In this document: piece after piece, positions 884 through 10,610 of the stretch
Numbering within the stretch: position 1 is the stretch's first letter
How the letters are laid out: each line of letters begins with the position of its first letter
DNA from: Buttiauxella massiliensis
GTDB lineage: Bacteria > Pseudomonadota > Gammaproteobacteria > Enterobacterales > Enterobacteriaceae
DNA: 64,000 nucleotides
NCBI RefSeq assembly: GCF_902500225.1
Contig: NZ_LR722651.1
Location: 124,001 to 188,000 of the forward strand
Reading direction: 5' to 3'
Position numbers and translations under genes: made by a program
Notes under the pieces: model-generated
Database searches by the model: none
What the model saw: only the letters and a program-made list of their open reading frames with translations
Told to the model about the DNA's origin: nothing

Positions 884-1003
884 CTTTTCTACTCCTTCAC
901 CATTCAATGCAAATACGCAAATGCGCACCCAATAATGCTGCTAAGGATAGTCCAACCTGACTTTGCAAGATACCCTTTCACAACAATCTCTTTCAGGCAG
1001 ATT

Positions 1004-1020
1004 TGCGCTGAAATGGTGCA
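1004..1020. promoter_or_regulatory. NtrC-like enhancer site 1
   Basis: The 17-mer TGCGCTGAAATGGTGCA matches the NtrC consensus TGCACY-N4-TGGTGCA with one mismatch. Its centre is about 146 bp upstream of the start expected from the sigma-54 promoter at 1132. It is 33 bp (about three helical turns) from site 2, a layout like the two enhancer sites of glnAp2. Inference from motif and spacing. Confidence 0.6.
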
Positions 1021-1036
1021 TTTTCATACGCTAATC

Positions 1037-1053
1037 TGCACCTTATTGGCACA
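1037..1053. promoter_or_regulatory. NtrC-like enhancer site 2
   Basis: TGCACCTTATTGGCACA matches the NtrC palindrome with two mismatches in the right arm. It is centred about 113 bp upstream of the predicted sigma-54 start, on the same helical face as site 1. Confidence 0.5.
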
Positions 1054-1131
1054 TTTCCCTTCAATTGTGCACACCTCTAAATGTAGGTTAATCCTCTGTA
1101 ATAAATAGATAAATTATCTATTTTTCACACC

Positions 1132-1147
1132 TGGCATTCATCTTGCT
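1132..1147 (+). promoter_or_regulatory. sigma-54 promoter of the guanidine operon
   Basis: TGGCAT-N5-TTGCT with the invariant GG (1133-1134) and GC (1145-1146) separated by exactly ten bases, as sigma-54 promoters require. The predicted start near 1158 puts the whole ykkC aptamer in the 5' leader. With the upstream NtrC-like sites this indicates nitrogen-limitation control. Confidence 0.65.
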
Positions 1148-1203
1148 GATATCTGGATGCAGGGGTGATACGGGCAACCGATGTCGCTATACAATTTGGT
1201 AAT

Positions 1204-1293
1204 GGATCACTAGGGTTCCGGTCGAAAGATGCTGGTCCGAGAGTGATCGACCGCCCTCTGGCGGTTACACGGCGGGACAAAAGCCCGGGAGGA
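1204..1293 (+). ncRNA. guanidine-I riboswitch (ykkC class)
   Basis: The conserved ykkC blocks are present in order: CTAGGGTTCCGG (1210-1221), CTGGTCCGAGAG (1232-1243), then ACACGGCGGGACAAAAGCCC (1267-1286) followed by GGGAGGA. The helix GATCAC (1205-1210) / GTGATC (1243-1248) closes the first domain, and ACCGCC/GGCGGT forms a second hairpin. It sits in the leader of genes typical of guanidine metabolism. Known members of this class bind guanidinium and switch expression on. Confidence 0.9.
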
Positions 1294-1330
1294 TAAGCGA
1301 CCATTGCGCGCCGCCCTCCTGCACCTTTTT
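1286..1330 (+). terminator. riboswitch-controlled terminator (expression platform)
   Basis: CGGGAGG (1286-1292) can pair with CCTCCTG (1315-1321, one G-U), followed by CACCTTTTT. The 5' arm overlaps the conserved 3' end of the aptamer. Ligand-bound aptamer and terminator are therefore mutually exclusive, which fits an ON switch acting on transcription. Folding was done by eye. Confidence 0.6.
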
Positions 1331-1353
1331 CCGCAACCGTCAGAGGAACCACC

Positions 1354-2409
1354 ATGCTTAAAGCTTGCCACCGTGGAATCTTGTTTGCCGCACTCGCGCT
1401 GTTTAGTGTCAGCAGCTTTGCCGCAAAACCCTCATTTAAACTCTGCTGGTCTATCTACGCAGGCTGGATGCCGTGGGATTACGCCCAGCAAAGCGGCATC
1501 GTCAAAAAATGGGCCGATAAATACGGCATTGATATTAAGTTCGTGCAGGTTAACGACTATATCGAATCGGTGAACCAATACACCGCCGGTGGATTTGACG
1601 GCTGCACCATGACCAACATGGACGCGCTGACCATTCCCGCAGCCGGCGGCGTCGACAGCACCGCGCTGATTATTGGCGACTACTCCAACGGCAACGACGG
1701 CATTCTTTCCAAATCCGCCAAATCTATCGCTGAGCTAAAAGGCCAGCCGATTAACCTCGTCGAGCTTTCGGTTTCCCACTATTTACTCGCTCGTGCGCTG
1801 GAAAAATCGGGCCTCAGCGAGCGTGATGTGAAAGTCGTAAACACCGCCGATGCGGATTTGGTCGCGGCATTTACCACGCCGGACGTGAAATCCATCGTCA
1901 CCTGGAACCCGCTGTTAGCCGAAGCGCAGAAACAGCCCAACGCCAAACTCTTGTTCTCTTCTGCCCAAATCCCCGGCGAAATTCTCGACCTGTTAGTGGT
2001 GAACACCGAAACCCTGAAAGCCCACCCGGAACTTGGCAAAGCCTTGACCGGCGCGTGGTTTGAAACGCTGAAAGTGATGCAGGGGGAATCGGAAACCGCC
2101 AAAACCGCTCGCACGCAAATGGGCCAGGCCGCAGGCACCGATTTAGCCGGGTTCGACGCCCAGCTCGCCGCCACGCATTTATTCAGCGATCCGAAACTGG
2201 CGCTCGATTTCACCGACAGCCCGCAACTGAAAGCCACCATGCAGATGGTCGCAGAATTCTCCTTTAAACACGGTTTATTGGGCGAGGCCGCGCCGTCAGC
2301 CGATGTGGTCGGCGTAGCGACACCAGCCGGAAACTGGGGCGATACCAACAACACCAAACTGCGCTTCACCGACGAGTTTCTTCGCCTCGTCGTCAGCAAC
2401 GCGCTGTAA
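1354..2409 (+). CDS. ABC transporter substrate-binding protein, urea/guanidine carboxylase locus
   Basis: Periplasmic binding component of the importer encoded with the carboxylase. The first 24 or so residues form a Sec signal peptide ending around S-S-F-A-A. The mature part resembles the NMT1/TauA-like binding proteins found next to urea carboxylases (family 'ABC transporter periplasmic binding protein, urea carboxylase region'). It is the first gene behind the ykkC riboswitch, so its ligand is most likely guanidine or a close derivative rather than urea; this is inferred from context. A GAGG ribosome binding site precedes the ATG. The permease gene follows after 14 bases. Confidence 0.85.
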   Translation: MLKACHRGILFAALALFSVSSFAAKPSFKLCWSIYAGWMPWDYAQQSGIVKKWADKYGIDIKFVQVNDYIESVNQYTAGGFDGCTMTNMDALTIPAAGGVDSTALIIGDYSNGNDGILSKSAKSIAELKGQPINLVELSVSHYLLARALEKSGLSERDVKVVNTADADLVAAFTTPDVKSIVTWNPLLAEAQKQPNAKLLFSSAQIPGEILDLLVVNTETLKAHPELGKALTGAWFETLKVMQGESETAKTARTQMGQAAGTDLAGFDAQLAATHLFSDPKLALDFTDSPQLKATMQMVAEFSFKHGLLGEAAPSADVVGVATPAGNWGDTNNTKLRFTDEFLRLVVSNAL

Positions 2410-2423
2410 ACCGGAGGTGCCCG

Positions 2424-3236
2424 ATGCGCAAAATCATTAACTACCACCCTCAGCCAATGACCCGTGTGCTGATGGGCGCCTTGCCATTAGTCGCGGTGAT
2501 TTTCTTTTACCTGGTGTCTTCTGATGCCCGCCTTGCGGCGAACAGCTACGACAAACTGCTGCCGGGATTTGATGCGATGTGGGCGGCTATTGACCGCATG
2601 GCGTTCACGCCAAGCCCGCGTACGGGCGAGTATCTGTTCTGGACAGACAGCGCCGCAAGTCTGCTGCGTTTGCTGACAGGCGTTGGGCTGAGTGCCTTTC
2701 TGGCGCTGGTTTTCGGCCTGTTTTGCGGCGCACTCCCGGTGGTTCGCTCGGTGCTTTCCCCGCTGATCACCTTGATTGCGCTAATCCCGCCGCTGGCGAT
2801 TTTACCGATTTTATTCATCACCTTTGGGTTAGGTGAAGTCTCGAAAGTGGTGCTGATTGTCATCGGTATTACGCCGTTTATCGTGCGCGATTTGCAGCTT
2901 CAGGTGCAGGCGATTCCCCACGAGCAAATGGTAAAAGCCCAGACGCTGGGCGGCCACAGCGCGCAAATTCTCTGGCGCGTGGTGCTGCCGCAACTGTTGC
3001 CGCGCCTGATTGATGCGGTGCGTCTGTCGCTGTGTTCCGCCTGGCTGTTCCTGATTGCCGCCGAAGCCATCGCCGCCACCGAAGGGTTGGGTTATCGCAT
3101 CTTCCTGATGCGCCGCTACATGGCGATGGACGTGATTCTGCCTTACGTGGCGTGGATTACGCTGCTCGCTTTCACCCTCGACCTGCTGCTGCGCGTGGTT
3201 AATCGCCGCTGCTTCCCGTGGTACTACGCAAAATAA
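2424..3236 (+). CDS. ABC transporter permease, guanidine/urea carboxylase locus
   Basis: Inner-membrane permease of 270 residues in the BPD (TauC/SsuC-like) family. One membrane segment lies near residues 13-28, followed by a cluster of hydrophobic segments from about residue 75 on. The EAA-type cytoplasmic loop that docks the ATPase is visible near residues 165-190 (T-L-G-G-H-S ... V-L-P-Q-L-L-P-R). A GGAGG ribosome binding site precedes the ATG. The gene lies between the binding protein and ATPase genes with 14- and 9-base gaps, so the three are translated as one unit. Substrate inferred from context: guanidinium. Confidence 0.85.
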   Translation: MRKIINYHPQPMTRVLMGALPLVAVIFFYLVSSDARLAANSYDKLLPGFDAMWAAIDRMAFTPSPRTGEYLFWTDSAASLLRLLTGVGLSAFLALVFGLFCGALPVVRSVLSPLITLIALIPPLAILPILFITFGLGEVSKVVLIVIGITPFIVRDLQLQVQAIPHEQMVKAQTLGGHSAQILWRVVLPQLLPRLIDAVRLSLCSAWLFLIAAEAIAATEGLGYRIFLMRRYMAMDVILPYVAWITLLAFTLDLLLRVVNRRCFPWYYAK

Positions 3237-3245
3237 GGAGGCGCT

Positions 3246-4010
3246 ATGGCGTTGCTCGAACTGAAAAATATCGAAAAGCACTACGGCGACCAGGTAGTGC
3301 TGGAACGGCTGAATGTCAGCGTTGAAGAAGGGGAATTTGTCTCGATTGTTGGCGCGTCAGGCTGCGGGAAAACCACCTTTCTGAAGATGCTGCTCGGGAC
3401 GGAATCCGCCACCAAAGGCCAATTTTTACTTGATGGCAAACCTATCTCGCAAGAACCGGATGCCCAGCGTGGCGTGGTTTTCCAGCGCTACTCGGTGTTT
3501 CCGCACCTCACGGTAATTGGCAATGTGATGCTGGCCGAGGAGTTCAGCACCGCCCGCTGGCTGGGGCGCGTGTGGGGCAAGAAGCGCCAGGAAATTCGTG
3601 AACGCGCCCGCGCTATGCTCGACCAGGTTGGCCTGTTGCCCGCACAAAACAAATACCCGCACCAGCTTTCCGGCGGCATGCAGCAACGCCTGGCGCTGGC
3701 TCAGGCACTGATGAAACAACCACGCATTCTGCTGCTTGATGAACCTTTTGGCGCACTCGACCCCGGCATTCGCAACGAAATGCATTTGCTGATCAGCGAT
3801 TTGTGGGAGCGCCACCGCCTGACCATTTTCATGATTACGCATGACCTGAAAGAAGGGTTTTCGCTCGGTTCACGTCTGTGGGTGTTCGACAAAGTGCGCC
3901 ACGACCCGCAAGCACCGGACCGCTGGGGTGCGAGCATTACCTACGATATCCCACTTGATAAGAAACCCGCCAGCGCGGTGGATGCCGAACCCGAACGTAA
4001 AGTCGCCTGA
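3246..4010 (+). CDS. ABC transporter ATP-binding protein, guanidine/urea carboxylase locus
   Basis: Nucleotide-binding subunit of the importer, 254 residues. Walker A is GASGCGKT at residues 36-43. The signature LSGGMQQR lies near residue 140, immediately followed by Walker B (ILLLDEP) and the H-loop (M-I-T-H-D). The Q-loop reads VVFQRYSVFPHL. The length and motifs are those of the TauB/SsuB group. A strong AAGGAGG ribosome binding site precedes the ATG. The C-terminal 40 residues are polar and not conserved. Confidence 0.88.
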   Translation: MALLELKNIEKHYGDQVVLERLNVSVEEGEFVSIVGASGCGKTTFLKMLLGTESATKGQFLLDGKPISQEPDAQRGVVFQRYSVFPHLTVIGNVMLAEEFSTARWLGRVWGKKRQEIRERARAMLDQVGLLPAQNKYPHQLSGGMQQRLALAQALMKQPRILLLDEPFGALDPGIRNEMHLLISDLWERHRLTIFMITHDLKEGFSLGSRLWVFDKVRHDPQAPDRWGASITYDIPLDKKPASAVDAEPERKVA

Positions 4011-4025
4011 ACTAAGGAGCCAAAC

Positions 4026-4739
4026 ATGACCTACCAAACCGAACTCCCCGCGGGCAGCCACTGGTCGCTGATCATGCGCCGTGGCACCGCGCTCACGCTC
4101 ACCGACATCAGCGGTGGTGTGAACGCTGCCGCCCTGTTTTACAACCCGGAAAACCTGCTGGAGCGCTATAACGCGCCGGACACCCTGAAATGCCAGCACA
4201 CCTTCCGCCTCACCACCGGGCACTGCCTGTATTCCGATATGGGGCGCATTTTCTGCGGCATCGAACAAGACAGTTTCGGCTGGCATGAGACCGTCTGCGG
4301 CAGCAGCAACGCAACGCAAATCGCACAGCAATTCGGCGCACTGGATTACCAACAGGCCCACAACGAACGCCACCAAAACGGCTACGACAGCTTCCTGATT
4401 GAATTGGCGAAATATGGTCTCGGCAAACGCGACATGGCGGCCAATATCAACTTTTTCGCCAGAGTCACCGCCAGCGACGATGGCGATTTAAAACTGGAAC
4501 AGCAGGGCCTTGCGGGCGCATCCGTCACGCTGCGTTTTGCGATGGACACCTTAGTGATTCTGCATACCTGCCCGCATCCGCTGAACGAGGCAATGACTTA
4601 CCCGCGCCAGGCGCTCGGCATTCAACTGGATTCCACCCGCCAACCGCTGCCAGAAATTTGCCTGCAACGTGAAGAAAACTGCCGTGGCCTGCATAACAAC
4701 GAACTTTATATCCTGACTGAAGGAGCCTGCGGATGCTGA
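4026..4739 (+). CDS. carboxyguanidine deiminase-type subunit (urea carboxylase-associated protein, DUF1989)
   Basis: DUF1989 protein of the urea-amidolyase-associated pair (UAAP1/UAAP2). Such pairs form carboxyguanidine deiminase (CgdAB), which removes ammonia from the product of guanidine carboxylase to give allophanate. The metal-site region reads [11 protein letters not shown] near residues 81-91. Compared with its partner (D-T-C-G-R-H-D-T), the first cysteine is replaced by phenylalanine, so this may be the non-catalytic or less active subunit; that is an inference. The stop codon overlaps the next start by seven bases, suggesting coupled translation and a 1:1 complex. Which subunit is CgdA and which CgdB was not decided. 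Confidence 0.82.
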
Positions 4740-5368
4740 CTGAAAGCCCACGCCATACAGAAACCGCAAACCTGCGCACCACGGTACACGCCGGAGATTA
4801 CTGGGTTTATCGCCTGCAAGAAGGCCAGACACTGCGCATTACCGATCTGGAAGGCAACCAGGCGGCGGATACGCTGTTTTATAACGCCGACGACACCGCC
4901 GAACGCTATAGCGTAACCGACACACTGCGCGGCCAGCGCAACGTTTTCCTCACCAGTGGCAGCGTTTTACGCTCGAACGAAGACCGCCCTATGCTGGACA
5001 TTGTGGCCGATACCTGTGGCCGCCACGACACCCTCGGCGGGGCCTGCGCCACCGAAAGCAACACCGTGCGTTACTCATTAGAAAAACGCTATATGCACGC
5101 CTGCCGCGACAGCTGGCTGCTCGCCGTGGCGCAGCACCCGGAATATGGCCTGACGCGCCGCGATATCACCCACAATATCAATTTCTTTATGAACGTTCCG
5201 GTCACTAAAGAAGGCGGGTTGCAGTTTGCCGATGGCATTTCAGCACCGGGAAAATACGTCGAACTGGTGGCGAAAATGAACGTTCTGGTGCTGATCTCCA
5301 ACTGCCCGCAGCTCAACAACCCTTGCAACGGTTACAACCCAACGCCGATTGAAGTCGCCGTCTGGTAA
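4733..5368 (+). CDS. carboxyguanidine deiminase-type subunit, second DUF1989 protein
   Basis: Second DUF1989 protein, 211 residues, partner of the preceding gene. It keeps a full candidate metal-binding cluster, [13 protein letters not shown] near residues 91-103, with two cysteines and a histidine, and so is the better candidate for the catalytic subunit. The ATG at 4733 is preceded by GGAGCC inside the upstream gene. The two proteins share a motif order ([21 protein letters not shown], then the metal cluster, then N-I-N-F-F-M-N-V) typical of the family. Previously annotated as urea carboxylase-associated; the guanidine role follows from published work on the family and from the riboswitches here. 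Confidence 0.83.
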
Positions 5369-5379
5369 TCATTTAGCGC

Positions 5380-5429
5380 TGCGGGACGGCCCGCACTCCA
5401 GCGCCCGAATTGACAGCAGGACGACCTGC
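5380..5429 (+). ncRNA. guanidine-II riboswitch (mini-ykkC class) inside the operon
   Basis: Two short hairpins with the diagnostic ACGR loops stand in the 79-base gap before the carboxylase gene. Hairpin 1 is GCGGG-ACGG-CCCGC (5381-5394, plus a closing T-A). Hairpin 2 is GCAGG-ACGA-CCTGC (5416-5429). The 21-base linker and the position 18 bases before the ATG fit the mini-ykkC architecture, in which guanidine drives a kissing interaction of the two loops and frees the ribosome binding site. Found by eye; no covariance search was run. Confidence 0.85.
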
Positions 5430-5447
5430 GAGCCTGAGAAACCGGTT

Positions 5448-8400
5448 ATGTTTAAACGAGTCTTGATTGCCAACCGTGGCGCGATTGCGGTGCGTATCAT
5501 CCGCACTTTGCAGCAAATGGGCATCACCGCGATTGCGGTTTATGCCGAAGCCGACAAACACTCCCAACACGTGCGCCAGGCCGATCTCGCCTTCTCATTA
5601 GGCGACGGCAACGTGCGCGAAACGTACCTCAACCAGGACAAACTGTTTGCGATCCTCAAGGAAAGCGGCGCGGAAGCGGTGCATCCGGGTTACGGTTTTC
5701 TGAGTGAAAATGCCAGTTTTGTCGAGCGCTGCGACAGTGGAAACATCGTGTTCCTTGGCCCGAGCGTTGAACAAATGGCGGCTTTCGGCCTTAAACATCG
5801 CGCCCGTGAACTGGCAGAGTTGAACCATGTTCCGCTGCTTTCTGGCAGTGGCCTGCTGACTTCGCTGGATGTCGCGCTGGAAGAAGCAAACCGCATTGGC
5901 TATCCGGTGATGCTGAAAAGCACTGCGGGCGGCGGCGGAATTGGCATGCAGTGTTGCGATAACGCATTGGCATTGAACGAAGCGTTTACCCGTGTAAAAC
6001 GCCTCGCAGGCAACAACTTCTCCGACGATGGCGTCTTTTTAGAGAAATTTATCGCTCACGCTCGCCACATCGAAGTGCAAGTTTTTGGCGACGGGGCGGG
6101 CAACGTTATCGCACTGGGCGAACGTGATTGCTCGGCACAGCGCCGCAACCAAAAAGTGATTGAAGAAACTCCCGCGCCGCGATTATCTGACGCGACCCGC
6201 AGCGCCCTGCACCGCACGGCGGTCGAGCTTTGCAGCGCGGTAAATTATCGCAGCGCCGGAACGGTGGAATACGTTTACGACGACATCAGCGAGCAATTCT
6301 GGTTCCTTGAAGTGAACACGCGTTTGCAGGTAGAACATGGCGTGACCGAGATGGTTTACGGCGTGGATATTGTGAGCTGGATGGTGGCGCTGGGTGCAAA
6401 TCAGCTGCCCACATTAGAATCTTTGCGCACCTCGCCGCAAGGCCATGCGATTCAGGTGCGCGTGTATGCCGAAGATCCGGCGAAGAACTTCCAGCCGGTG
6501 GCTGGGCTGTTAAGCGAAGTGATATTCCCGCAAGCGGTCGACGGCGCAAGGCTTCGCGTCGATCACTGGCTGGCGACGGGCTGTGAAGTCTCGCCGTTTT
6601 ATGACCCGATGCTGGCAAAAGTGATCGTTCATGCCGATTCGCGTGAGCAGGCGCTAAGCTCACTTTCAAACGCTTTGCAGCAAACATCGCTGTATGGCAT
6701 TGAAACCAACCTCAACTGGCTGCGATATTTACTGACTTTGCCAGAAGTGCAGCAAGGGCGAGTGATTACCGCCACGCTCGGAAAAGTGAACTGGCAACCT
6801 GCGACGCTGGATGTATTAACCGGCGGCACCATGACCACGATACAAGACGCGCCAGGGCGCAGCGGTTACTGGCATGTCGGCGTGCCTCCTTCCGGCCCGT
6901 TCGACAACCGTGCCTTTAACGTCGGCAATAAATTGTTGGGCAACGACGCACAAGCCGCTGGCCTGGAAATCACCTTACGCGGCCCGACGCTGCGCTTTAA
7001 TCAACCGTGTGCATTCGTACTAACCGGTGCTGAAATTGCCGCAAAGCTGGATGATAAAACGGTTTCAACGGGTGTGGTCGTCAATGCCAACGCGGGGCAA
7101 GTTTTAACGCTCGGCGATATTATCGGCGCGGGTTGCCGCAGCTATTTGCTGCTGGCGGGTGGGCTGAATTGCCCGCAATATCTCGGCAGCCGCAGCACCT
7201 TTACGCTGGGTAAATTTGGCGGCCATGCCGGGCGCGCTTTACGTGCCGGAGATGTGCTGCATCTTGCCGCCGCCGAGCACCGCACCGCCGCGTCGCTTGC
7301 CGCAGAAGAGTACCCAGTGCTCAGCAATAACTGGCAACTGCGCGTGGTTTACGGCCCGCACGGCGCACCGGAGTTTTTCACCGCGCAAGATATTGAGGAG
7401 TTCTTTGCCGCCCGCTGGCAGGTACATTACAACTCAAGCCGCACCGGTATTCGCCTGATTGGCCCAAAACCGACCTGGGCACGCAGCGATGGCGGTGAAG
7501 CAGGAATGCACCCATCGAATATTCATGACAATGCATATGCTTTTGGCACCGTGGATTTCACCGGCGACATGCCGGTGATCCTTGGCCCGGACGGCCCATC
7601 GCTCGGCGGCTTTGTTTGCCCGGCAACAGTAATTAGCGATGATTTGTGGAAGCTCGGGCAGCTTAAAGCCGGGGACACAATTGAGTTTGTGGCAGTGAGT
7701 CTGGATGACCGCCCAGCTCAATCGCCAATCCTCTATCACGATCCCGCCAACAACGGCATGCCGTCCGTCACCATCCGCGCGGCGGGGGATCGCTTTTTAC
7801 TGGTGGAATACGGCGAACAAGTGCTGGATATCGCGCTGCGTTTTCGCGTCCACGCGCTGATGCAGCGGCTGGAAACACATCCGCAGGAAGGCCGTCTGGA
7901 ACTGACGCCGGGCATCCGTTCGCTACAAATTCATTTCGACAATCACCTTTGCCCGCGCCAGCAATTACTGGAAACGATTATCACCGCCGATCACGCGCTG
8001 GCCGATTTGCAGAACGCCAAAGTGCCATCGCGTACCGTCTGGCTGCCGCTAAGCTGGGACGATGCCGCCTGCCGCGAAGCCATCACCCGCTACACTCAGT
8101 CGGTTCGCCCCGGAGCGCCGTGGTGCCCGAGCAACATCGAATTTATTCGCCGTATTAATGGGTTGGACTCCATTGAAGAGGTGAAAAAAATCGTCTTTGA
8201 CGCCAGCTATTTAGTGATGGGTTTGGGGGATGTTTACCTGGGCGCACCCGTCGCCACGCCGCTTGATCCGCGCCACCGCCTGGTCACCACCAAATACAAC
8301 CCGGCGCGCACCTGGACTGCGGAAAACTCAGTCGGCATTGGCGGCGCATATATGTGCGTTTACGGCATGGAAGGGCCAGGCGGATATCAGTTTATCGGGC

Positions 8401-8972
8401 GAACCCTGCAAATGTGGAACCGCGACCGCCATACCGAAGTGTTCACCAAACCGTGGCTGCTGCGCTTCTTTGACCAGATTCGCTTTTACGAAGTCAGTGC
8501 CGAAGAGTTGCTGGAAATCCGCGAGCGTTTCCCGTGGGGCGACTATCCGCTGCGCATTGAGGACGGGGAATTTAGCCTCGATGCGTATCAGCAAATGCTT
8601 GAGCAAGAAGCCGAAACTATCGACACCTTCCAGCAGCAACGCCAACACGCGTTTGATGGGGAACTGGCGCGCTGGCGGGCGGAGGGGCAATTCACATTTG
8701 ACAGCGCACTTGATGAAACTCCGACCAACGACGAGTTCATTCCCGACTCCTGTTGCGGAGTGGAAAGCCAGGTCGCCGGAAGCGTGTGGCAATGGCTGGT
8801 TGAGCCAGGCGAGCAGGTGAAAGCCGGGCAAACCATTGGCATTCTGGAGTCGATGAAAATGGAAATCCCGATTACCTCGCCGGTTGATGGCGTTATTCGC
8901 ACCTTCCAGCGCCAGCAGGGCCACCAGGTTCATGCCGGGCAATTGTTAATGGTGATTGAAACCGCAGCATAA
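5448..8972 (+). CDS. uca: urea/guanidine carboxylase (biotin-dependent)
   Basis: ATP-dependent carboxylase of 1174 residues. Domains in order: biotin carboxylase (about 1-450; G-G-G-G-I-G-M-Q ATP-grasp loop; E-V-N-T-R-L-Q-V-E-H), KipA/AHS2-like carboxyltransferase half (from about residue 465), KipI/AHS1-like half, a linker region, and a C-terminal biotin carrier domain with E-S-M-K-M-E, the biotinyl lysine at about residue 1137. It lacks the allophanate hydrolase domain of fungal urea amidolyase. Between two guanidine riboswitches and beside DUF1989 partners, guanidine is the likely substrate. The start was set at 5448: the frame is open back to 5349, but that stretch is the mini-ykkC element, and the BC domain begins M-F-K-R-V-L-I-A-N-R-G. 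The ribosome binding site is weak, consistent with regulation. Confidence 0.9.
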   Translation: MFKRVLIANRGAIAVRIIRTLQQMGITAIAVYAEADKHSQHVRQADLAFSLGDGNVRETYLNQDKLFAILKESGAEAVHPGYGFLSENASFVERCDSGNIVFLGPSVEQMAAFGLKHRARELAELNHVPLLSGSGLLTSLDVALEEANRIGYPVMLKSTAGGGGIGMQCCDNALALNEAFTRVKRLAGNNFSDDGVFLEKFIAHARHIEVQVFGDGAGNVIALGERDCSAQRRNQKVIEETPAPRLSDATRSALHRTAVELCSAVNYRSAGTVEYVYDDISEQFWFLEVNTRLQVEHGVTEMVYGVDIVSWMVALGANQLPTLESLRTSPQGHAIQVRVYAEDPAKNFQPVAGLLSEVIFPQAVDGARLRVDHWLATGCEVSPFYDPMLAKVIVHADSREQALSSLSNALQQTSLYGIETNLNWLRYLLTLPEVQQGRVITATLGKVNWQPATLDVLTGGTMTTIQDAPGRSGYWHVGVPPSGPFDNRAFNVGNKLLGNDAQAAGLEITLRGPTLRFNQPCAFVLTGAEIAAKLDDKTVSTGVVVNANAGQVLTLGDIIGAGCRSYLLLAGGLNCPQYLGSRSTFTLGKFGGHAGRALRAGDVLHLAAAEHRTAASLAAEEYPVLSNNWQLRVVYGPHGAPEFFTAQDIEEFFAARWQVHYNSSRTGIRLIGPKPTWARSDGGEAGMHPSNIHDNAYAFGTVDFTGDMPVILGPDGPSLGGFVCPATVISDDLWKLGQLKAGDTIEFVAVSLDDRPAQSPILYHDPANNGMPSVTIRAAGDRFLLVEYGEQVLDIALRFRVHALMQRLETHPQEGRLELTPGIRSLQIHFDNHLCPRQQLLETIITADHALADLQNAKVPSRTVWLPLSWDDAACREAITRYTQSVRPGAPWCPSNIEFIRRINGLDSIEEVKKIVFDASYLVMGLGDVYLGAPVATPLDPRHRLVTTKYNPARTWTAENSVGIGGAYMCVYGMEGPGGYQFIGRTLQMWNRDRHTEVFTKPWLLRFFDQIRFYEVSAEELLEIRERFPWGDYPLRIEDGEFSLDAYQQMLEQEAETIDTFQQQRQHAFDGELARWRAEGQFTFDSALDETPTNDEFIPDSCCGVESQVAGSVWQWLVEPGEQVKAGQTIGILESMKMEIPITSPVDGVIRTFQRQQGHQVHAGQLLMVIETAA

Positions 8973-9098
8973 AAGTAAATGTTGCTTGATTGTTAAGCCC
9001 CTCACAAATCCGGTGACATCCTGTCGCCGGAAAGCCAATCTCAACCTATTAATATTTAACGGTTAAATTCATTGTCGCTACTGATACCCGCTTAATCA

Positions 9099-9113
9099 GT
9101 ACGATAATCGCAC
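9099..9113. promoter_or_regulatory. PcaR-like operator 1
   Basis: GTACGATAATCGCAC differs by one base from the 15-bp PcaR operator I recall for Pseudomonas putida (GTTCGATAATCGCAC). It lies 115 bp before the transporter start. Recognition is from memory of the IclR-family PcaR site. Confidence 0.5.
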
Positions 9114-9184
9114 ACAAACACCTGACGATTGATTGCCCAAACGCTTGCTGAGTGGTTTGATTTAACGAACGATTAACGAATCAT

Positions 9185-9201
9185 TGTTCGATAATCGAAC
9201 A
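9185..9201. promoter_or_regulatory. PcaR-like operator 2 (perfect palindrome)
   Basis: TGTTCGA-TAA-TCGAACA is a perfect inverted repeat with the same core (GTTCGATAATCG) as operator 1, 87 bp further on and 27 bp before the transporter ATG. The spacing of about eight helical turns would allow a regulator to bind both on the same face. Confidence 0.6.
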
Positions 9202-9227
9202 CCTCAGCATCCTTCAGGACGTGCCTT

Positions 9228-10610
9228 ATGACAAAGACAACAACGACAGATATTCAGGCATTTATTAACAATAATAAGTTTTCCAGATATCAGTGGATGA
9301 TCCTTATCCTCTGTTTCATTACGGTGGCGTTGGACGGCTTCGATACCGCGATTATTGGTTTTATCGCCTCTGATCTGGTGCAGGAATGGGGCGTGCAGAA
9401 ATCTGACCTTGGCCCGGTGATGAGTGCGGCATTGGTCGGATTGGCGGTGGGTGCGTTAACCGCCGGGCCAATGGCTGACCGCATCGGGCGAAAAAAAGTG
9501 TTGGTGTTGTCGATTCTGGTATTCGGTGGTTTTAGCCTGCTGACAGCATTTGCTACCAGTCTGACATCACTCGCTCTCCTGCGTTTCCTCACCGGGCTTG
9601 GTCTGGGTGCGGCAATGCCAAACGCAGCAACGCTGATGTCAGAATATGCACCGGAACGTAAACGCGCACTGCTGGTGAACCTGATGTTTGTCGGCTTCCC
9701 GATTGGTTCTTCAATGGGTGGCTTTGTCTCCGCATGGATGATCCCGCATTACGGCTGGCAGAGCGTACTGGTGCTGGGCGGCGTGATGCCACTCATTCTT
9801 TCAGTGGTGCTGATGATTTGGCTACCTGAATCCGCACGTTATCTGGTGGTAAAAAACAAGCAGCAGAAAGATATCGCCACGATTTTAAAACGCATTGCCC
9901 CGCTGCCATCAGGCGAAAACCTGCGCTTCGTGCTTAACGAAGTCGGCGGTCATATCAAAGATAAAACCGCGCTGGGCGTGATTTTCTCGCCACGATATCT
10001 GGTGGGAACCTTAATGCTGTGCCTGACCTATTTTATGGGCCTGCTGATTTTCTATCTCCTGACCAGCTGGCTGCCGCTGCTGATTCGTGAAACCGGCGCA
10101 ACGCTCAGTCAGGCGTCGATTATCACCGCGCTGTTCCCGCTCGGCGGCGGCATTGGCGTGCTGATTATTGGTGCGCTGATGGACAAGCTGAACCCAAATA
10201 AAGTCGTCGCGGTGGGATATTTGCTGACTGGGCTGTTCGTCTGCCTGGTCGGTTTCTCCACCTCTAGCCTGGTGCTGATGGGCGTGATGGTGTTTATCGC
10301 AGGCACTATTATGAATGGCGCACAATCGTCGATGCCTGCGCTAGCGGCAGGTTTTTACCCCACGCAAGGGCGTGCGACTGGCGTGGCGTGGATGTTAGGG
10401 CTGGGACGTTTCGGCGGAATTCTTGGGGCGTTTAGTGGCGCATTCCTGATGCAAGCTGAACTGTCGTTCAAAACTATTTTCATGCTACTGGCAATTCCGG
10501 CACTACTTTCCGCCACCGCGTTGATGGTGAAATCCTGGGCGGGCCAGCGCACATTGGCAGAGAACCGCGCCAATAACCACGAGCTGGATAAAGTTACGCA
10601 AAAAGCATGA
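9228..10610 (+). CDS. MFS transporter, aromatic acid:H+ symporter family (PcaK/BenK-like)
   Basis: Twelve-span major facilitator protein, 460 residues. The hallmark AAHS motif D-G-F-D-T-A near residues 36-41 in the first membrane segment and the loop motif G-P-M-A-D-R-I-G-R-K mark the aromatic acid/proton symporter family (PcaK, BenK, GenK). The likely substrate is an aromatic carboxylate such as 4-hydroxybenzoate or protocatechuate; the exact one cannot be read from sequence. The ribosome binding site is AGGA in CAGGACGTGCCTT. It stands alone: 255 bases from the carboxylase gene, with its own upstream operators and a strong terminator behind it. No catabolic pca or gentisate genes and no IclR regulator are in the window. 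Confidence 0.82.
   Translation: MTKTTTTDIQAFINNNKFSRYQWMILILCFITVALDGFDTAIIGFIASDLVQEWGVQKSDLGPVMSAALVGLAVGALTAGPMADRIGRKKVLVLSILVFGGFSLLTAFATSLTSLALLRFLTGLGLGAAMPNAATLMSEYAPERKRALLVNLMFVGFPIGSSMGGFVSAWMIPHYGWQSVLVLGGVMPLILSVVLMIWLPESARYLVVKNKQQKDIATILKRIAPLPSGENLRFVLNEVGGHIKDKTALGVIFSPRYLVGTLMLCLTYFMGLLIFYLLTSWLPLLIRETGATLSQASIITALFPLGGGIGVLIIGALMDKLNPNKVVAVGYLLTGLFVCLVGFSTSSLVLMGVMVFIAGTIMNGAQSSMPALAAGFYPTQGRATGVAWMLGLGRFGGILGAFSGAFLMQAELSFKTIFMLLAIPALLSATALMVKSWAGQRTLAENRANNHELDKVTQKA

Follow-up and report, generated by a model that had tools for sequence, protein, structure and literature searches.

A probable guanidine-assimilation operon of Buttiauxella massiliensis with two guanidine riboswitches in series and a possibly translational first switch

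We analyzed a 64,000-nucleotide stretch of the Buttiauxella massiliensis genome (contig NZ_LR722651.1, positions 124,001 to 188,000; hereafter the window, whose own numbering is used below), focusing on an operon at 1199–8972 on the forward strand. The operon carries, in order, a guanidine-I (ykkC) riboswitch, importer genes, two urea-amidolyase-associated genes, a guanidine-II (mini-ykkC) riboswitch, and a carboxylase gene, and it is very probably a guanidine-assimilation operon with two guanidine switches, an arrangement that is already known. We identified both RNAs by model and by comparison, and established their order and conservation, the order of the genes, and the predicted folds. The operon, which would supply an ATP-binding cassette (ABC) importer, two deaminase subunits, and a guanidine carboxylase, is proposed to be induced by guanidine through two separate elements: expression of the importer and deaminase genes would depend on guanidine-I in the leader, and that of the carboxylase on guanidine-II between cgdB and gca. 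Both riboswitches are expected from their classes to be ON switches. The original prediction, made from the letters of the window alone, had supposed that this serial arrangement was undescribed; this does not hold, because two papers of 2025 describe it. The review PMC12186494 reports the two-riboswitch arrangement in Raoultella, Erwinia, and Klebsiella, and in PMC12508155 both RNAs were probed in one operon of Vreelandella boliviensis, the arrangement being "like in several other bacteria". Any novelty would lie in the mechanism of the first switch, not in the serial arrangement.

The guanidine-I aptamer at 1199–1293 (forward strand) matched Rfam model RF00442 with 81.9 bits (cut-off, 63) and aligned end to end with the full model (1–107). 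No other Rfam match reached its gathering threshold in the 64-kb window, and genome-wide no other guanidine-I match had E ≤ 0.001. The ABC importer, deaminase, and carboxylase genes downstream form the guanidine transport and metabolism context expected for this class, and the prediction of a guanidine-I aptamer in the operon leader was borne out. Guanidine binding by a member of this class in such an operon is known from in-line probing of the Vreelandella homologue (PMC12508155); the window aptamer is known from its sequence. That study obtained dissociation constants for guanidine of 44 and 93 µM for the two Vreelandella RNAs, one of which takes guanidine only; guanidine-II takes guanidine and methylguanidine.

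The serial arrangement itself recurs in relatives. Rfam searches of 295 genomes from the GTDB family of the window found guanidine-I in 46 (47 matches), and for 43 of the 47 a guanidine-II match lay 4.09–4.35 kb downstream on the same strand. The exceptions were G219, in which both guanidine-II hairpins are visible yet missing from the Rfam matches; G141, in which the first guanidine-II loop (P1, locus L130) reads ACGT; and L160 and L161, which are weak guanidine-I matches below the cut-off with no operon match within 10 kb. We also examined a named set of genomes with related carboxylases, for which 50 of 80 carboxylase loci were chosen by hand and 30 were left out. Guanidine-I was found in 43 of these 50 genomes, and under strict filters both RNAs lay in cis within 8 kb in 31 of the 50, 1.5–4.4 kb apart. 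Genera with both RNAs in cis included Pantoea, Erwinia, Mangrovibacter, Vibrio, Neptuniibacter, Methylophaga, Pseudomonas, Stutzerimonas, Variovorax, and Sulfurospirillum. The six-gene order was the same in 43 of 44 orthologous loci; the matches at the remaining locus (L146) were broken up.

Two loci showed additional copies. In Pseudomonas sp. PDM15 (L108, G337), guanidine-II and the carboxylase are preceded by two guanidine-I aptamers that lie about 1.3 kb from each other. A metagenome-assembled genome labelled Pedobacter (L064, G313) has, besides the usual double hairpin, a further one with ACGR loops about 1.5 kb upstream of the carboxylase, and an Rfam guanidine-II match on the opposite strand past guanidine-I, presumably on the same contig.

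The guanidine-II element of the window, at 5378–5429 (forward strand), aligned with RF01068 over its full length. It shares with other members of the class, for example that of E. coli sugE, two GC-rich hairpins capped by ACGR loops: P1 is TGCGGG-ACGG-CCCGCA (5380–5395, ACGG loop at 5386–5389) and P2 is GCAGG-ACGA-CCTGC (5416–5429, ACGA loop at 5421–5424). The element ends 18 nt before the carboxylase ATG (5448) and occupies most of the 79-nt gap between cgdB and gca (5369–5447). In a plain scan for two ACGR-capped hairpins with stems of at least 4 bp and no more than 45 nt apart, 5380–5429 was the single site in the window, both strands counted. The double hairpin that had been predicted 18 nt before the ATG was thus recovered, with stems that covary in orthologous gaps. 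The original prediction had also held that a covariance score below threshold would speak against the element; the score, 31.0 bits, falls one bit short of the Rfam gathering threshold of 32, which is a curation cut-off and not a structural feature. This shortfall counts against the assignment. The genome-wide E value was 4.6e-4, second to a 38.5-bit copy elsewhere in the genome. Among family operons, copies at the same place were over the cut-off in 31 of 43 and under it in 12, the window among these, and orthologous copies there reach 45.5 bits.

Two GACGN motifs 22–60 nt apart were found in 113 of 123 gaps before the carboxylase (45 of 45 family and 68 of 78 named; of 125 loci, two lacked enough upstream sequence), in a search anchored on GACGN plus C/T only, with no demand for stems. 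The gap set, for which the carboxylase of the window served as query, is weighted toward relatives of that enzyme. The loops were conserved as predicted, reading ACGR in 109 of 113 first loops and 109 of 113 second loops. The others were three ACGT and one ACGC among the first loops and four ACGC among the second, possibly reflecting variant specificity or decay. P1 pairs 3–7 were canonical in 54–74 of 78 unique hairpins with several pair types, and P2 pairs 3–5 in 75–80 of 80 with fewer pair types than P1; P2 pairs 6 and 7 were not conserved (29/80 and 19/80). P1 pair 4 was canonical in 74 of 78 hairpins (CG, AT, GC, TA, GT), versus 17 and 19 of 78 when the partner was slid by one, and the canonical counts of P1 pairs 3 and 4 and P2 pair 4 all dropped on such sliding. 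The inner pairs of the GGG/CCC runs were unchanged by it and therefore say little about covariation. Judged from these comparisons, the identity of guanidine-II is safe although the window score is one bit short.

Could the element nevertheless be an evolutionary remnant or a spacer, with guanidine-I alone controlling the operon? The score below the cut-off would fit, as would the P1 loop: ACGG, present in the window and in 24 of the 113 first loops in all, belongs to variants with reduced activity according to PMC9300104. In addition, the Shine–Dalgarno (SD) sequence of gca pairs weakly with the 16S tail (−2.7 kcal/mol) and is 0.61 unpaired, and its sequestration by an anti-SD is not predicted. 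We regard this explanation as very unlikely, given the recurrence of both motifs, with compensatory changes, in 113 of the 123 gaps, the orthologous copies of up to 45.5 bits at the same place, and the guanidine binding of the Vreelandella guanidine-II element (PMC12508155). Alternatively, guanidine-II might be part of a separate transcript started from a promoter ahead of gca, for which the 79-nt gap would leave room. This is most improbable: no sigma-70-like site was listed near 5369–5447 by a scan that covers the sigma-70 type only, such sites numbered 4 in the region versus 5.1 in shuffles, the aptamer fills most of the gap, and the gene order is the same in 43 of 44 loci.

By analogy with its class, guanidine-II most likely acts on translation of gca. 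The prediction that the second element is a translation switch stands insofar as it follows from the class; the published pairing of the linker with the SD sequence, however, was not predicted in the window fold (probability 0.01), which leaves that mechanism unsupported here. The window linker is 20 nt long, with a 4-nt insert relative to the model, and both hairpins were predicted to be stable without ligand (0.99 and 0.98). Across 45 loci, the linker–SD pairing probability ranged from 0.00 to 0.69, and with such mixed values we did not adopt the linker anti-SD model. An outer helix around P1 in one enterobacterial clade (GCGC...GCGC, TACG...CGTA, GACGC...GCGTC) looked covarying by eye; it is not claimed, because with flanks swapped between loci the mean helix length equalled or exceeded the observed one in 297 of 2000 permutations (in the other clade, in 995 of 2000). 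Further permissive Rfam matches in 1000–9300 (HOXA11-AS1, PtaRNA1, and sR3) had E values of 8 or more and were taken as chance.

For the first switch, folding and comparison suggest the following mechanism. Without guanidine, the 3' part of the leader would pair with the aptamer, and P2 of guanidine-I (1255–1266) would cover the SD region (1335–1346); with guanidine, P1, P2, and P3 would hold and the SD sequence of the first gene would be free. The same hairpin may in addition affect transcription, as may Rho by way of the untranslated message. In the minimum-energy fold of the window leader, the candidate anti-SD at 1255–1266 (forward strand), which comprises the P2 loop and 3' arm, forms a 12-bp helix with one G-U with AACCGTCAGAGG at 1335–1346 (forward strand) and covers the AGAGG SD sequence of the first gene. 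Folds of eight growing transcripts kept P1 and P2 at ends 1293, 1315, 1325, 1331, and 1340 (that ending at 1305 differed), and exchanged P2 for the SD helix at ends 1350 and 1368. An alternative hairpin, CGGGAGG...CCTCCTG at 1286–1321 (forward strand), overlaps the aptamer 3' end (P3), may be terminator-like or anti-P3, and formed in the folds of transcripts truncated at 1325 and 1331.

The complementarity between P2 and the SD region recurs in relatives, and its form varies by clade: CCTCTGGCG with CGTCAGAGG in one enterobacterial group, GACCTC with GAGGTC in a second, CTCCAGTTGA with TCAACTGGAG in Pseudomonas, and CTCTTGAGTAGA with TCTACTCAGGAG in a Campylobacterales genome. For the leader tests we used 44 of 45 family leaders (L146 was dropped, as the start of its first gene was not found) and 33 named leaders. 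L053, L056, L073, and L074 were left out, their guanidine-I lying on another contig or outside the locus. Six further named leaders were added last (L043, L044, L059, L083, L099, and L111); L044 duplicates family genome G270 by coordinates, and other named loci may share species with family genomes. By minimum-energy fold, P2–SD pairing was present in 33 of 44 family leaders. The longest contiguous P2–SD helix averaged 7.6 over 52 loci with distinct P2 versus 5.7 over 297 same-operon SD windows (Wilcoxon p = 1.8e-8; 0 of 5000 permutations reached the observed mean), with helices of at least 7 in 37 of the 52 loci versus 64 of the 297 control windows. The permutation result also held within the second enterobacterial group alone (0/5000). 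Counting an SD as paired to the aptamer when 6 or more of its 12 nt were paired, the aptamer was predicted to cover the SD in 71 of 83 leaders versus 169 of 473 same-operon controls: 38/44 versus 94/271 for family leaders, 27/33 versus 62/174 for named leaders, and 6/6 versus 13/28 for the six further ones. Removal of six doubtful rows from the named set left 24/27 versus 54/155.

Several points weigh against P2–SD pairing as the platform of the first switch. By minimum-energy fold it was missing from 11 of 44 family leaders, 7 of which have a run of at least five T, and six of the 33 named leaders (L052, L060, L075, L095, L105, and L112, some with doubtful windows) lacked aptamer–SD pairing as counted above. 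A duplex-energy test was weaker: the family mean was −18.0 versus −14.7 kcal/mol for controls, and the energy of 23% of the 246 controls did not exceed the family median. All of these tests ignore relatedness, and related sequences inflate every one of them; some non-enteric rows were also kept despite wrong P2 or start windows, which are visibly wrong at L075, L077, L095, L096, L101, and L105, all retained in the helix test. Finally, enforcing the aptamer gave −40.0 kcal/mol versus −64.5 for the OFF fold, a cost of about 24 kcal/mol in the model. Ligand binding would be unable to tip such an equilibrium, so that the first switch would have to be kinetic.

The original prediction and PMC12508155 instead offer a two-level gate, in which guanidine-I acts through an intrinsic terminator and guanidine-II through translation. 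PMC12508155 presumes that guanidine-I destabilizes the terminator, and PMC12186494 states that guanidine-I usually acts on transcription, from which the apparent SD sequestration by P2 in the window would differ. The window leader can indeed form a 7-bp hairpin (3' arm 1315–1321) whose arm is followed, beginning 4 nt beyond it, by the only run of five T in the leader (1326–1330), and 21 of the 44 family leaders, that of the window among them, contain a run of at least five T, which leaves room for termination and is a further point against a purely translational platform. On the other side, a consensus terminator scan listed none in the leader, although its 8-nt loop limit would miss the hairpin at 1286–1321. 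Such T runs occur in just 3 of 39 named leaders, and SD pairing is still predicted among the leaders without them, in 19 of 23 family leaders (to P2) and 30 of 36 named leaders (to the aptamer). A complementary split between T-run and SD-pairing leaders was considered and dropped as too weak (P2–SD pairing in 14/21 leaders with at least five T and 19/23 without).

The excess of SD sequestration and the rarity of T runs in named leaders suggest that the first switch may act on translation and not mainly on termination, and favor a translational, perhaps dual, platform for the first leader. The predicted termination switch is doubtful, and we consider the two-level gate possible, at somewhat less than even chances. 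That P2–SD pairing is the main expression platform of the first switch has, in our judgment, about an even chance, and we would place at a similar level the broader proposal that guanidine-I, with P2 itself as the anti-SD, is a common translational ON switch among the guanidine carboxylase operons of Proteobacteria and Campylobacterota. In a literature survey of limited coverage, we met no description of guanidine-I acting by P2–SD pairing, which does not establish its absence from print.

The genes of the operon, all on the forward strand, agree with a role in guanidine use. The first encodes an ABC transporter substrate-binding protein (1354–2409, 351 residues; NCBIfam TIGR03427, 524 bits, cut-off 334), followed by an ABC transporter permease (2424–3236, 270 residues), nearest to TauC-type permeases with all four listed models below their own cut-offs, and an ABC transporter ATP-binding protein (3246–4010, 254 residues), for which the best 25 of 169 matched models were all below the cut-off. 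Urea-amidolyase-associated protein 1 (4026–4739; TIGR03425, 280 bits, cut-off 206) is probably a carboxyguanidine deaminase subunit of the cgdA or cgdB type, by analogy with the role given in PMC12508155, and urea-amidolyase-associated protein 2 (4733–5368; TIGR03424, 331 bits, cut-off 285) is probably the second subunit. The guanidine carboxylase (gca, 5448–8972, 1174 residues) matched TIGR02712, whose model name is urea carboxylase, with 1775 bits (cut-off, 1304), and its four nearest named carboxylases are all from Buttiauxella species (91–95% identical). We infer its preference for guanidine over urea from the riboswitch context and the papers.

The Vreelandella boliviensis operon (PMC12508155) likewise carries guanidine-I at its 5' end and guanidine-II in the cgdB–gca gap, along with the same ABC importer, cgd, and gca genes; unlike the window, it continues with mgdH, mgdL, and atzF after gca. 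The enterobacterial operons of the review (PMC12186494) resemble the window in having importer and deaminase genes under guanidine-I and the carboxylase under guanidine-II, and differ in having allophanate hydrolase in the guanidine-II part. No allophanate hydrolase gene directly follows gca at 8973–9227 in the window. The genome's copy lies on another contig (L167, G000:C19:245841-247514), for which whole-genome Rfam searches listed no guanidine-I or guanidine-II match. Among 15 guanidine-I genomes (16 checked), only G153 has allophanate hydrolase right behind the carboxylase. The next gene in the window (9228–10610) encodes an aromatic-acid/H+ symport family major facilitator superfamily (MFS) transporter near PcaK (TIGR00895, above cut-off); it lies downstream of the operon in 4 of 44 relatives, within the 10 kb covered per locus.

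The second guanidine-II copy of the genome (G000:C23:225073-225120, 38.5 bits) lies just upstream of a 109-residue open reading frame (L162), which we take to encode a small multidrug resistance (SMR) exporter of the gdx/sugE kind. The genome would thus pair guanidine assimilation with a likely exporter.

In this operon, one bacterium gauges the same small molecule with two unrelated RNAs, and the conservation of the second one in 113 of the 123 gaps suggests that it is maintained by selection. The authors of PMC12508155 regard such dual riboswitch control as an interesting topic for future work. If P2 of guanidine-I does sequester the SD sequence, the presumed division, with transcription controlled first and translation second, would need correcting: both serial switches would act on translation, each of a separate cistron, perhaps with a contribution coupled through Rho.

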